A stretch of DNA of 64,000 bases from an uncultured Methylobacter sp. Its GTDB lineage: Bacteria > Pseudomonadota > Gammaproteobacteria > Methylococcales > Methylomonadaceae. Each line of letters begins with the position of its first letter. Within the stretch, counting starts at the first letter, position 1. The position numbers and the translations under genes are program-made. This document shows, in pieces, positions 55,525-63,559 of the stretch. Location of the stretch: the NCBI GenBank assembly GCA_903832775.1, contig CAILCX010000071.1, forward strand, positions 41,056 to 105,055. Reading direction: 5' to 3'. Under the pieces are notes generated by a model. That model ran no database searches and was not told where the DNA came from. It saw only the letters and a program-made list of their open reading frames with translations.

Positions 55525-55598
55525 GGCTGCGTAGCAAAATGGTTATGCAGTGGCCTGCAAAGCCATCTACGGCGGTTCGATTCCGCCCGCAGCCTCCA
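55525..55598 (+). tRNA. tRNA-Cys (anticodon GCA)
   Basis: GGCTGCG...CGCAGCC acceptor; GGTTCGATTCC T-arm; anticodon GCA; encoded CCA. Confidence 0.95.
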
Positions 55599-55768: not shown

Positions 55769-55807
55769 AAGTACTGTATGTTGTTTTCACTTCAAGGACT
55801 TACCACA

Positions 55808-57070
55808 ATGGCTACAAATATTCTTTTTGATGTCTCTATCCGTAATGCAAAGCCCATAGATAAAGACCAGCGTCTTAATGATGGCGGTGGACTGTATCTG
55901 CTGATTAAACCCAGCGGCGCAAAGTGGTGGCGATTTGATTACACCATGGTAGGTAGGCGCAAAACATTATCATTGGGCGTTTATCCGAAAACCTCATTAA
56001 ATGATGCTCGGAAAAAAGCAACAGCAATTGCTAATAAAGTTTCAAATGGGATTGATCCCAGTGCCGAACGTAAAGCTAAAAAAATAGAACAAGTAAAGCA
56101 AAAGGAAAATGACCGGCTTATTGACTTAGGGTTGCCCGTACTTAATAGCTTTGAATATGTAGCGCGTGAGTGGGGGATAAAAAAAGTTAACGACTGGGAT
56201 GATAAAAATAATCGTTCAAAACGGATGCTTGAACGAAACATATTTCCTTGGCTGGGTAGTAAGCCCATAACAGATATTTTACCTAAAGATATTCTGGTTT
56301 GTTTGCGACGTATTGAAGATCGCGGAACAATTGAAACGGCACACAGGACATTGCAAATATGTGGGCAAGTATTCCGGTATGCAGTCGCAACTATTGATGG
56401 CGTTGATCGGGATATAACTCCCGATTTACGCGGAGCATTGCCACCGGCAAAAGGTGAGCACTTTGCCTCAATTACCGAACCAAAACAGGTTGCTGAATTA
56501 CTAAGAGCAATCGACAGTTATCAAGGTTCATTAGCGGTTATTTGTGCGCTGAAACTTGCACCTTTGGTATTTGTGCGTCCTGGCGAATTACGCGCGGCAG
56601 AGTGGGAGCATATTAACCTTGAGTCTAAAGAATGGCGTTACTTTGTATCAAAAACCAAGACAGAACATATTGTTCCGCTTTCGAATCAAGCCGTAAAAAT
56701 ATTGGAAGAACTGTGCCCGCTTACCGGGCATGGGCGTTTTGTGTTTTCGTCGGAGCGTACCCCGCGTGGTGATAGATGTATGAGTGAGAATACTATAAAT
56801 GCAGCCTTAAAAAGAATGGGTTTTGGCAAGGATATAATGACCGGTCACGGTTTTAGAGCAATGGCTAGGACGATACTTGATGAAGAGTTGGGCGTTAGAG
56901 TTGATTTTATTGAACATCAACTTGCACATGCTGTTAAAGATCCAAACGGACGCGCCTATAATCGAACAGCTCTTTTACCGGGACGACATAAGATGATGCA
57001 GCAATGGTCAGATTATCTGGACAATCTAAAGAATGGGGCACAAGTTCTACCATTTAAAAATATCGGTTAA
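55808..57070 (+). CDS. Tyrosine-type site-specific integrase (P4-like, N-terminal DUF4102-like arm-binding domain)
   Basis: LNDGGGLYLLIKPSGAKWWRFDYTMVGRRKTLSLGVYPKTSLNDAR; catalytic RPGELRAAEW, HGFRAMARTILDEE; start set to ATG of MATNILFD. Confidence 0.95.
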   Translation: MATNILFDVSIRNAKPIDKDQRLNDGGGLYLLIKPSGAKWWRFDYTMVGRRKTLSLGVYPKTSLNDARKKATAIANKVSNGIDPSAERKAKKIEQVKQKENDRLIDLGLPVLNSFEYVAREWGIKKVNDWDDKNNRSKRMLERNIFPWLGSKPITDILPKDILVCLRRIEDRGTIETAHRTLQICGQVFRYAVATIDGVDRDITPDLRGALPPAKGEHFASITEPKQVAELLRAIDSYQGSLAVICALKLAPLVFVRPGELRAAEWEHINLESKEWRYFVSKTKTEHIVPLSNQAVKILEELCPLTGHGRFVFSSERTPRGDRCMSENTINAALKRMGFGKDIMTGHGFRAMARTILDEELGVRVDFIEHQLAHAVKDPNGRAYNRTALLPGRHKMMQQWSDYLDNLKNGAQVLPFKNIG

Positions 57071-57220: not shown

Positions 57221-57841
57221 TTGGTTGATGTTTTTTTTCGCGGTTATGGGCAGTGGCGTCTTGATATAGATAAAGAATTATCTGGCCTAGACATGTCTTT
57301 TACTGAGTATCTATCTGATATATATCAAGCTGATGGCGTTTTTCGGCTAAATAAAAATGATGAAACTGCTTATAAGCATACAAAAAGTCTTGAAAACTTC
57401 GATATTAAATATTTATTAAGAAGCGAACATCCAGATTGTGAGTTTTCAAGATATATAAACAGTGGTGGACACATAGTCCAATGCTATCTAATCCCATACG
57501 ATATAGATGACCTTTACTTTTGCCTTGAGTCAAATCAGCCTAAACCAATAATTTTAACAATTGCAGAATCATACGAACCGAACACCAAAGAAGTTCTAAC
57601 TATAAAACCAAATGAGACTAATAAAGGTCGAAGGCCAGCACAAATCAATTTATTACTGTCAACTATTGATGAAATGCAATATGAGCGTCTAAATATCCCA
57701 GTTGGAGGAAAGAAAAAAACACTCGAAATATGTTTAGAAAATAAAAAAGTTTTTTCTACAGAGTCAGTCTTTAACGCAGTATGGTCAGAACTAAGCAAGG
57801 ATGGTCATATATCAATCACAGGGAAAGATAAATATCTTTAA
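57221..57841 (+). CDS. Hypothetical protein
   Basis: 206 aa ORF in accessory region; no recognised motif. Confidence 0.6.
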   Translation: MVDVFFRGYGQWRLDIDKELSGLDMSFTEYLSDIYQADGVFRLNKNDETAYKHTKSLENFDIKYLLRSEHPDCEFSRYINSGGHIVQCYLIPYDIDDLYFCLESNQPKPIILTIAESYEPNTKEVLTIKPNETNKGRRPAQINLLLSTIDEMQYERLNIPVGGKKKTLEICLENKKVFSTESVFNAVWSELSKDGHISITGKDKYL

Positions 57842-57962: not shown

Positions 57963-58229
57963 ATGCAACAAGCAACTATTACGAAAACCAGCGGCACCGA
58001 ATTAAATCAAATTAATATTAGTTCGTTACCTGAAACCGGATTTTTACGAATCTGGCATATCATAGGCAACAAAAAAACCAACATCCCTGCACTTATTCCA
58101 ATAAGTGGAACATCTTTCTTAAATGGCGTCAAATCTGGTAAATATCCGAAGCCAGTTAAGCTTGGAGAAAGAACAACAGCTTGGCGCGTTGAAGACATAA
58201 GAGAGCTAATAACTAATATAAGTTGCTGA
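57963..58229 (+). CDS. AlpA-family phage/island transcriptional regulator
   Basis: SFLNGVKSGKYPKPVKLGERTTAWRVEDIRELI is characteristic of AlpA/MerR-type HTH. Confidence 0.88.
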   Translation: MQQATITKTSGTELNQINISSLPETGFLRIWHIIGNKKTNIPALIPISGTSFLNGVKSGKYPKPVKLGERTTAWRVEDIRELITNISC

Positions 58230-58602: not shown

Positions 58603-59049
58603 ATGAATTCTCATTTTATTGCTTTTTTTATACCAGTTGCTGGTATAGGTATTATTTGTCTTATAAAAAAATTAATAGTTGATCGTATAGAACCTATAAC
58701 ACCTGAAAAAAATATAGAAAATCCAATAGAATCAGTCTTAAATAGCAATCAACCTAAAAGCAATTTGAATATAGTTATTATTCTTGGAATTATCGGAGTA
58801 ATAGGAAGTTTTTTTATGGATACATCAATATCTTCAGGCGATATTAGAGTTAAAAATATTGGGCTAATGCAGCAACAACAGAACATGTTGATTGTTTCTG
58901 GATTAGTCGTTTTAATAGGAGTTATTATGTCAATGATAAAATCAAAAAATATCGTAGACTCATCAGAACTTAAAGCTTGTCCTTATTGCGCTGAATCTAT
59001 TAAAAAAGAGGCTATTTTATGTAGATATTGTGGTAAAGATGTCATATAA
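58603..59049 (+). CDS. Membrane protein with C-terminal zinc ribbon
   Basis: Two hydrophobic segments and [23 protein letters not shown]. Confidence 0.72.
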
Positions 59050-59184: not shown

Positions 59185-59637
59185 ATGAAATATGTTGTCA
59201 TAGTTACCAGTAGATTTTTATGTTTATTTTGGGTCGTTGCACCTACACTTATCAAAGATAAAGTTGTTGGACTAGTTACTTTTTCAAGCACTGATCGTCA
59301 ATGCTTTAACTATTACAAAAATAAGGACAACTACTTCAAAGATCCAGACTCTGCATATATGGAAAGTAGCCTTATCTGGACTAAAACAGATAACCTAGAT
59401 GAGCTAAGAGAGCATCAAAATATTATTGAGATTGATAAAGTTATTAATATTAAAGAATACGATTCTATTGTAAAGGTAAAAGTAAGAGCGCGAAATAGTA
59501 TGGGCGGGTATGCTTCTGAAGACATATATTGTCCGTTGGCTGACAACAACCTCATCAATACACTTGACTCACTAAAGTATGACACACGCTATACATTAAA
59601 AAAACTTATTGAAAGAGATGATTTAATAAGAGAGTAA
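59185..59637 (+). CDS. Hypothetical protein with N-terminal signal/TM segment
   Basis: 150 aa ORF, hydrophobic N-terminus. Confidence 0.6.
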   Translation: MKYVVIVTSRFLCLFWVVAPTLIKDKVVGLVTFSSTDRQCFNYYKNKDNYFKDPDSAYMESSLIWTKTDNLDELREHQNIIEIDKVINIKEYDSIVKVKVRARNSMGGYASEDIYCPLADNNLINTLDSLKYDTRYTLKKLIERDDLIRE

Positions 59638-59947: not shown

Positions 59948-60029
59948 TAAGTTAACTGCATATTAACATAAGCTACACTAAAATTAATCAAGTAATTGAT
60001 TTTAGCATAATAAATTAATAAATTAGAAT

Positions 60030-60099
60030 GTGTCACTTTTTTACTACAAGAAGGTATTAGTTAAATTTTTGTGTAATTCTTGTAGATAAAAAGTGACAC
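60030..60099. repeat. 23-bp inverted repeat (21/23 matching) with 24-nt spacer, followed by a T-run
   Basis: GTGTCACTTTTTTACTACAAGAA (60030-60052) vs TTCTTGTAGATAAAAAGTGACAC (60077-60099). Confidence 0.85.
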
Positions 60100-60124
60100 G
60101 TTTTTTCTCTTACTGGAAAAAATA

Positions 60125-60451
60125 ATGAACCATAAATTGGTTAATACCATAACTACTGAAAATATATATTCTGGTTTATTTGTAAAAAACTACCCTTCTT
60201 TATGTAATCTATTAAATGATAAAGTAAAGAAGGGTAAATCAAAAATTTTACAACTAGAAGAATGGAAAAGAATATTTAACTTTGATCGTGAAATAAATAA
60301 TGGTTGCATTGGTAGAGGTTATAAGATAATTGAAGTTTACCTTACAGAAAAGTCTAAGGAACGTAAGCTAGCGATTAAAACTATTATCAGAAATCTAGTG
60401 ATTTTAGAAGATTTACTGAATGAATTAGATGAAACCAAAGAAAAGAATTAA
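60125..60451 (+). CDS. Hypothetical protein, upstream half of a stop-interrupted frame
   Basis: 108 aa ORF ending in TAA; same frame as 60554..61339. Confidence 0.6.
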   Translation: MNHKLVNTITTENIYSGLFVKNYPSLCNLLNDKVKKGKSKILQLEEWKRIFNFDREINNGCIGRGYKIIEVYLTEKSKERKLAIKTIIRNLVILEDLLNELDETKEKN

Positions 60452-60553
60452 TCATATAGAACAACTAAGGAATTATATTTACTACTTGGTATTTGTAATG
60501 ATGATTTTTTTAAAAATAGACATATAAGTCAGTTAAAGCTAAAAAATAATCCT

Positions 60554-61339
60554 ATGAATTTAGCCCTTTATAATAAAAGTATTTTCTTTAGAATCCCTTT
60601 AAATGATGTCAGGTCATTTTATGAAGATATTGATAGCAAAGGAAGAAGTGTTATTTATGGATTACTGACAACCCTACAAAAACAATGCAATGTTGAAATA
60701 GACAAATCTTATAATATATGTATTGATTTAGTTAATGATATATACAGATATTGTACTGAATATGAATATTCTTTGATTAAGTCGGCTATAGGTAGAACAT
60801 TACCTAAATATTCAAAAGAAGATGAACATGGAGTAATGATAATACCAACAGAGAAAGATATATTTTTATCTAGGAAATTCGATGTATTCTACAAAGATGT
60901 TGCTAATGATAGTATATTACAGGAATCAGGGATAAAAAAATTCTATACTATTTATAAGTTCACATTTACATCTAGCATATTGAAATTTATTGAATTATAT
61001 AACAAAGATATACATGTGTCTGATAAATCAATGTTTTTGAATCAAAGAATGATTAAATCTATTGAACTTAGTACCTGCAAAAGAATAATCAAGCATAGCA
61101 AACTTCTGTGCCAATTACTTATAAAGAATCCAACTATAGATATGGATGAGCTTTGTACTAAATATCGAATTACAGGGTTAAGGGGTAAAGATAATGAATA
61201 TTGGCATGATAGGAAGCTATTGATTAATAAGTTAATTAATCAATATGAAGAGATCAAGGTAAAATCTGAAGTAAAAATAAGAACTGGTCGATGGGTGCCA
61301 CCCGTAGTAAAAATAAATCTAGATGCATGGAAAACTTAA
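60554..61339 (+). CDS. Hypothetical protein, downstream half of a stop-interrupted frame
   Basis: 261 aa ORF; frame open back to 60452. Confidence 0.6.
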   Translation: MNLALYNKSIFFRIPLNDVRSFYEDIDSKGRSVIYGLLTTLQKQCNVEIDKSYNICIDLVNDIYRYCTEYEYSLIKSAIGRTLPKYSKEDEHGVMIIPTEKDIFLSRKFDVFYKDVANDSILQESGIKKFYTIYKFTFTSSILKFIELYNKDIHVSDKSMFLNQRMIKSIELSTCKRIIKHSKLLCQLLIKNPTIDMDELCTKYRITGLRGKDNEYWHDRKLLINKLINQYEEIKVKSEVKIRTGRWVPPVVKINLDAWKT

Positions 61340-61422
61340 ATCTAGACACTTTATTAAATTACTATTTACTTCTAACGACACCAGAAAATTTTTCTAAAAA
61401 AATCCGGCCTATATTAACTAAG

Positions 61423-61441
61423 AGCGTAATCTTTTTACGCT
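61423..61441. repeat. 7-bp hairpin AGCGTAA-TCTTT-TTACGCT
   Basis: Read directly. Confidence 0.6.
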
Positions 61442-61565
61442 AACTGTTACGGGTTCAGGAAGTACCTTTCTCCAAACACCCAACAGTCAAACATATATCT
61501 TATCAAATAGCTTTGCAACTTGAATTGTTTGTAATAATTAAAATATTGTCATCTACCTTGCTGAT

Positions 61566-61862: not shown

Positions 61863-62363
61863 GTCCTATCAAACAGTGTGTTAGAAAAATAAAGACTGCA
61901 TAATTGTTACGTTATTTAATGTACCCTAAATTCTCCAGTTAATCCGTTCTGGGTTGTATTATTAAAACTGCTAAGCTTTAACTAACACTATATATTTTGC
62001 TTCAAGTATATATCAATTCAAGTTAATGACGGCCATTGTGTCGCCTTTTTTGTTTCTGGCTTATTAGGCTACTTATTTCTTTTAGGCTATGCCAGCCAAA
62101 CTAAATGAATTTATCCAGCACGGGGCTAATTTTAGTCTAGTGGGTTAAGTTGTAAGTTTGGTGCTTGCTTGAATAAATTAATTTTATCTTGTGGCTTGCC
62201 ATTAGCTCAGAAAATAAATTTATAGAGCTGAATAATTTAATGCAACTTTAGAGTGATGACGAAAAGTTAAGGGCTGGAATGATACCAGTGCATTTTGGTT
62301 GAAATTTCGGCAATTGTTGCGGGTGATCGAAAATGAATTTATACACAGTCACGCCGACTTCAT

Positions 62364-62385
62364 GCAGTAACTTTGTCAGTAACAG
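62364..62385. repeat. 22-bp motif GCAGTAACTTTGTCAGTAACAG, near-identical to 55713-55734
   Basis: 20/22 match to GCAGTAATTATGTCAGTAACAG with the same 12-nt octamer spacing. Confidence 0.75.
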
Positions 62386-62539
62386 TTATAATTGAAAAGC
62401 AAATAATGTAGTATTTACGGTGCTTGTAGAGCCTTTTGTGATAGAGCCCGCACCAAAAATAGGGTTAAAATACCCCAAATTAATTAGTAAAAGTGGTTGA
62501 AACCACTTTGAGACGTCTTGGTAGGGGGCTACGCGAGAT

Positions 62540-63559
62540 ATGGCAACAATAAGAAAACGCGCATCGGGAAGCTGGGAAATTATTATTCAGTATAAAGGGG
62601 GTTTGCCTAAGCCGCATTATGCGAGTGCCGATACCGAAGAGGCGGCAAGAGTTTATGCATTGGGTGTAGAGCGGTTATTAGATCAAGGGATATTACCGTT
62701 GAACTACAGGAATCTACTCCAGCGCCCGTTAAATTTGTCGACACTTGGGCTCGGCAATATTTAGTTCAGGTGTCTATTTCTGAATCTGATCGGCTATTGC
62801 TAAATGCTATGCTGCCCAAATTGGCTACGTTTAAGATTTCACAATTGAATAGTGCCTGGGCGCAAGACTGGGTAACTGAAATGAAGCGCATAGATAAGCT
62901 ATCTCCCAGTTCGATTCGGCATAAGGTTGGTGCGCTCGCAAGGTTGCTGGATTGGTGTTTGCGTAATGATTGGCTTGGCTCTAATTCTTTGCGACTGTTG
63001 CCAAAGCGCTATGCAAGTTACACTGATTCAGATGGCGATAAAAAGATTGATACTGAACGGGATCGACGCTTGCATCCTGGTGAATATGAAAAGATTTTGT
63101 GGGTGTTGGCTGGAAATTTCTCTGAAGGTGTTCAGCGCGGCATTACGACAAATGATCGACTTGCGTGGGAGTTGTTATTTACCCTTGCAATTGAAACAGC
63201 TATGCGACTGCGTGAAATGTACACACTGTCAATAGGGCAGGTTGATTTGGGAAAGAAAACGATATTTCTGGATAAAACAAAGAATGGAGATAAGCGGCAA
63301 GTTCCGCTGTCATCAGTTGCCTTAGCTGCATTAACAGGCTGGAATTTCCATAATGATTTAATTTTTCCATTTTGGGATGGCAAACATGAATCGTTGCGTC
63401 ATACTACAATGAAGTTAAGCCGGAAGTGGACAGCAATTGCCAGGCTTGCTGGGTGTGAAGATTTACATTTTCATGATTTTTAGTGGCCATAAGGACTTAC
63501 AAATGCTTAAGCGGTATGTCAATATTAGAGGATCTGATTTGGCAGAAATGTTGTGGTAA
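62540..63559 (+). pseudogene. Decayed tyrosine integrase (frameshift near 62699; internal deletion near 63480)
   Basis: MATIRKRASGSWEIIIQYKG... shifts frame into ELQESTPAPVKFVDTWARQYLVQ...; ends HFHDF*, while the +1 frame continues SGHKDLQMLKRYVNIRGSDLAEMLW*. Confidence 0.85.

Follow-up and report, generated by a model that had tools for sequence, protein, structure and literature searches.

A gene of an uncharacterised phage and island family, probably interrupted by a premature stop codon, in a small integrated island of an uncultured Methylobacter

The DNA analysed here (the window) is a stretch of 64,000 nucleotides from an uncultured Methylobacter sp. (assembly GCA_903832775.1, contig CAILCX010000071.1) and forms the end of a contig. 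Following a tRNA-Gly/tRNA-Cys pair, it contains an integrase/AlpA island of about 6.9 kb, in which the gene of interest is located (Table 1). The island integrase is followed by a 206-aa protein, an AlpA-like gene, a zinc-ribbon membrane protein, a 150-aa protein, the interrupted gene and, finally, a small protein on the opposite strand. GC content is 41.7% in the window, 34.5% in the island and 26.5% in the gene. At the right end, the similarity to the matching island end in G006, one of three Methylobacter genomes with an intact homologue of the gene (G004, G006 and G018), fades after ACCAAA. A second tyrosine integrase adjoins the island (62540-63483); it has a frameshift near 62764 and an early stop at 63483, in the middle of the catalytic domain. 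The segments 61356-61531 and 62010-62281 are dispersed repeats. Contig C122 of this genome has adjacent copies of both (77% and 83%) in the vicinity of tRNA-Thr and a ygiQ-like gene, and the repeat at 62010-62281 is also present in genomes G014 and G017 (84%).

Table 1. Features of the island and of the interrupted gene (positions in the window).
Feature	Position	Strand	Remarks
tRNA-Cys	55525..55598	+	adjoins the left end of the island
Island tyrosine integrase	55778..57070	+	79% identical to the G006 integrase at the same tRNA-Gly/tRNA-Cys site
206-aa protein	57221..57841	+	G006 and G004 have proteins of ~200-300 aa in this place
AlpA-like regulator/excisionase	57963..58229	+	borderline Pfam match (21.1 bits; cut-off 21)
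Membrane/zinc-ribbon protein	58603..59049	+	
150-aa protein	59185..59637	+	relatives in genome G009, 57-67% identity
Inverted repeat	60027..60102	+	arms of 26 nt around a 24-nt spacer; the ATG follows 22 nt downstream
Interrupted coding sequence of a single gene (phrog_36702; 404 positions)	60125..61339	+	single-piece family-profile match across the stop
5' part, 108 codons and TAA	60125..60451	+	predicted winged-helix-like domain 1 (~residues 18-72) and first helix of domain 2 (81-103)
In-frame TAA with T as the next base (TAA-T)	60449..60451	+	residue 109, where the first strand of predicted domain 2 begins
3' part, 295 open codons	60452..61339	+	homologous to the rest of the family; probably untranslated
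ATG first proposed as a second start	60554..60556	+	residue 144, within predicted domain 2; lacks a Shine-Dalgarno
Probable right island end, inferred	62343..62468	.	CAGTAAC sites, also beside the integrase; similarity to the matching G006 end

A preliminary description of this locus reported two open reading frames lying in one frame and separated by a single TAA, and its coordinates are borne out: the ATG at 60125, the TAA at 60449-60451, the ATG at 60554 and the TAA at 61337-61339 all share one frame. The 404 positions from 60125 to 61339 comprise 108 codons, the TAA and 295 codons with no further in-frame stop. The description had also argued that the 34 open codons between the TAA and the second ATG are seldom expected by chance. 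The single frame is a sound observation, but those 34 codons are a weak argument by themselves, since at the local stop rate (0.085 per codon) a stretch of this length stays open about 5% of the time. At the same rate the chance that all 295 codons after the TAA remain open is about 5e-12, and the other five frames contain 10-52 stops across this stretch. Genetic recoding was considered as well and rejected, because TAA terminates other genes of this genome (59637, 61339).

The 5' part matches family phrog_36702 (PHROGs v4; 412 positions) at 3.3e-6, and tblastn with this part found relatives encoded in one piece by Geobacillus virus E3 (371 aa) and Thomasclavelia phage TR-TP2 (457 aa). Searches started from these two proteins yielded some 30 relatives from phages, prophages and genomes, and every one of the 23 members aligned matches phrog_36702. 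The homologues, about 330-466 aa in length, are single proteins and come mostly from phages or prophages, whose known hosts are mainly Firmicutes. The distinct homologues that entered the profile have ORFs of 332-466 aa without interruption. E3 gp200 and TR-TP2 gp125 belong to the family over their full length and, unlike the window copy with its TAA, are each encoded by an uninterrupted ORF. One uninterrupted ORF of about 330-470 codons is a trait of the family that the window gene, with a TAA at codon 109, does not share; hence it is a broken member of phrog_36702 and not a functional one. The N-terminal half had been likened to small proteins on Firmicutes mobile elements. This pointed in the right direction (Geobacillus, Thomasclavelia, Sporosarcina, B. 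velezensis), but the relatives are full-length proteins rather than small ones. Searches of Pfam, NCBIfam, PADLOC and PHROGs gave no functional assignment for the family, and a tree, its branches being too long, did not place the window sequence. A viral contig (L039:1225-2625) shows an unusual domain combination, in which the N-terminal domain of this family continues in frame into a protein that was assigned by eye as TnpB-like and has the zinc-finger motif CPHCGHRHKPNGRNYKCQCG. On Bacillus velezensis pDMB05-1 (L040:575-5026) the homologue lies a few genes past aimR/aimP in an apparent SPbeta-like prophage.

These relatives were reached through the N-terminal part and phrog_36702. Queries with the C-terminal part alone had given none: no match was obtained with Pfam above its cut-off, a PDB sequence search, tblastn against phages, short-peptide scans or a first search for relatives, and tblastn matches to Lactiplantibacillus plasmids (E 0.3-0.9) were rejected as chance level. 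We used a profile built from 28 homologues, from which the window sequence was left out, and entered the window translation with an X at the stop. Read-over positions 11-376 of this translation matched the profile in one piece, scoring 108 bits over model positions 3-342 of 371. The 3' part alone scored 49.1 bits, the best of 1000 shuffles scored 12.9, and the reversed sequence fell below 0. A BLASTP alignment to the M. tundripaludum homologue (L004/L012) also crosses the stop (E 1.2e-16). The 34 codons between the TAA and the second ATG are themselves homologous, reading TTKELYLLLGICNDDFF in the window compared with TDKEIKLIIGLCNQYYI and TTNRILKIISLCNDNYT in two Methylobacter homologues. This homology across the stop, including the 34-codon stretch, is the decisive evidence for one gene. 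Two unrelated adjacent ORFs that share a frame by chance would explain why BLASTP to distant members such as TR-TP2 is significant over the N-terminal part only. Such an arrangement is extremely improbable and already contradicted, because the 3' part alone matches the same profile (49 bits) in the correct order and spacing, and a whole-genome profile search unites both parts in one match.

In that independent search, a 23-member alignment was compared with 201 genomes of the window's taxonomic family, and the four matches found were all in the window's genus. Those in G018, G004 and G006 are stop-free, and the window match contains exactly one TAA (model positions 3-352; E 1.9e-29). A class-wide search with phrog_36702 gave no match in 369 genomes. 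Identity between the window sequence and the Methylobacter homologues is 20-28% where pairwise alignment succeeds, the G004 homologue (L064) being aligned by profile only. The single-protein homologues spanning the TAA, three of them in the same genus, support one option offered by the preliminary description, a protein of about 404 codons with a recent nonsense mutation. They also answer its question of whether relatives span the TAA: they do so as single proteins, and the 3' part matches the family profile alone as well.

The place of the gene is similar in these relatives. G006 carries an intact 388-aa homologue (L005) directly after AlpA, next to the same tRNA pair. G004 carries an intact 342-aa homologue with no tRNA nearby, in the order integrase (of another type), 300-aa protein, 77-aa protein, homologue. 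In both genomes, the gene follows an integrase, a protein of 200-300 aa and a small AlpA- or excisionase-sized gene. In G018 (M. tundripaludum OWC-G53F, of the same genus as the window) an intact 367-aa homologue (L012), with an inverted repeat upstream, lies at a contig end, and a further G018 contig breaks off past a tRNA-Leu, an integrase and AlpA. About 4 kb past the homologue, 97 bp of the tRNA-Leu end recur with 91% identity, so that the two contigs are probably parts of one island. A protein with an Mrr-type nuclease domain is encoded beside this homologue (L012:1715-4010), which suggests that islands of this kind carry defence genes.

AlphaFold predicts the same order of helices and strands for the read-over product (mean pLDDT 75) and for E3 gp200 (86). 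The window model begins with a winged-helix-like unit at residues 18-72, followed by a linker, a helix at 81-103, a strand at 109-112, helices at 114-121 and 126-137, a long helix at 159-187, and strands at 191-201 and 206-209. This predicted order of elements may be read as two winged-helix-like units. A fold search against the PDB returned nothing for either model, and a search against viral models returned only uncharacterised phage proteins of 170-499 aa. The TAA coincides with the first strand of the predicted second unit, and the second ATG lies 35 codons past the stop, downstream of this strand and of two helices in predicted domain 2. Given this position of the stop, and a second ATG inside domain 2 without a Shine-Dalgarno sequence, neither half looks like a finished protein in the model.

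This arrangement bears on the possibility of gene fission, in which separately translated proteins of 108 and 261 aa would work together. A split after the linker would be placed where the family tolerates change, TR-TP2 gp125 having a long Lys/Glu-rich coiled coil there, and in L039 domain 1 is followed by an in-frame TnpB-like partner. We consider fission very improbable, however, since a start at 60554 would drop the first strand and the helices of predicted domain 2, and no relative is split in that way. Furthermore, the Shine-Dalgarno duplex amounts to -0.1 kcal/mol before the ATG at 60554, effectively none, against -3.3 before the ATG at 60125, and no in-frame ATG, GTG or TTG lies between the TAA and 60554. 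The coupled two-protein module that had been proposed for this locus consequently finds no support, its second ATG lying inside a predicted domain and without a ribosome-binding site.

Programmed readthrough of the stop codon, yielding proteins of 108 and 404 aa, would account for the long open frame past the stop (5e-12 by chance) and for its freedom from decay. The TAA could then be bypassed or used deliberately, so that the island would make a short protein of domain 1 as well as a full-length one that binds DNA, with the short form competing at the inverted repeat. Both the programmed readthrough and this dual use are very improbable. No aligned relative has a stop at that site, and TAA-T is the least leaky context, UAAU having been reported as the most efficient termination signal in bacteria (PMC5289835). 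Other members of the family are broken too, L011 by a frameshift and L028 by an in-frame TAA. In the latter, a viral contig (L028:3935-5119), the TAA is single and occupies a different site, inside domain 1. Breaks at varying sites fit loss and not programming, and programmed readthrough, one of the options first considered, is accordingly not supported.

We conclude that 60125-61339 is very probably a single island-borne gene of an uncharacterised phage and island family (phrog_36702) with a premature TAA at codon 109. Translation would stop at the TAA and give a 108-aa fragment, consisting of domain 1 and one helix and probably inactive, and the 295 codons beyond would stay untranslated. The gene would thus be either a recent pseudogene allele or the carrier of a sequence error. 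Intact stop-free homologues, as expected for a pseudogene, are present. The 3' part has suffered no extra decay, with a ratio of C- to N-terminal score of 0.8 in the window against 0.82 and 0.80 in intact Methylobacter homologues, and the lack of further stops sets an upper bound of about 5.5% on neutral divergence after the break. This unworn state means that the break is recent or that the TAA is a sequence error. At about 25% identity the relatives are too distant for a selection test on the window copy itself. Low-level translation of the 3' part may occur, given that it contains neither stops nor frameshifts and shows no visible decay.

A sequencing or assembly error, with the gene intact in the organism, is the likeliest of the alternatives, although still unlikely. 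The assembly is a draft of 215 contigs, the 3' part looks fully constrained, and there is no second copy or strain for comparison, none having been found in the same genome, the genus or the viral contigs. A lone substitution error is uncommon in a finished contig, however, broken family members occur elsewhere, and the integrase next to this island is broken too.

The intact protein would be DNA-binding and would serve the island as a regulator or a replication-type protein. Long inverted repeats, differing in sequence, precede the gene at all four Methylobacter loci (window, L012, L005 and L064), and at each locus none of 200 dinucleotide shuffles reached them; most phage members have no notable upstream repeat. 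The upstream repeat at L012 extends up to 256. The repeat at 60027-60102 is a possible operator, origin element or hairpin. A DNA-binding role is suggested by the place of the gene after AlpA or an excisionase, together with the winged-helix-like units and the inverted repeat upstream in all four loci; a DNA-binding island regulator or replication-type protein is what we infer, more weakly, for the intact family protein, in part from predicted models.

Gram-negative bacteria have phage-inducible chromosomal islands of the AlpA type (PMC6092414), which are likewise small, with an integrase followed by an AlpA-like gene and no visible virion genes. Unlike them, the window island has no recognised primase or Pri-Rep homologue, a search with Pfam having found no primase or replication protein in it, and the resemblance would be only in the way such islands work.

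As a broken gene, the window copy is ordinary. It offers a clean example of an open frame past a stop that reflects a recent break and not recoding. It also shows that a phage family whose known hosts are mainly Firmicutes extends to small integrated islands of Methylobacter, a gammaproteobacterium, where its gene adjoins the integrase/AlpA module. Its conserved place there, the two predicted winged-helix-like units and the upstream inverted repeat lead to a testable guess, namely that the family protein may be a DNA-binding regulator or a replication-type protein.
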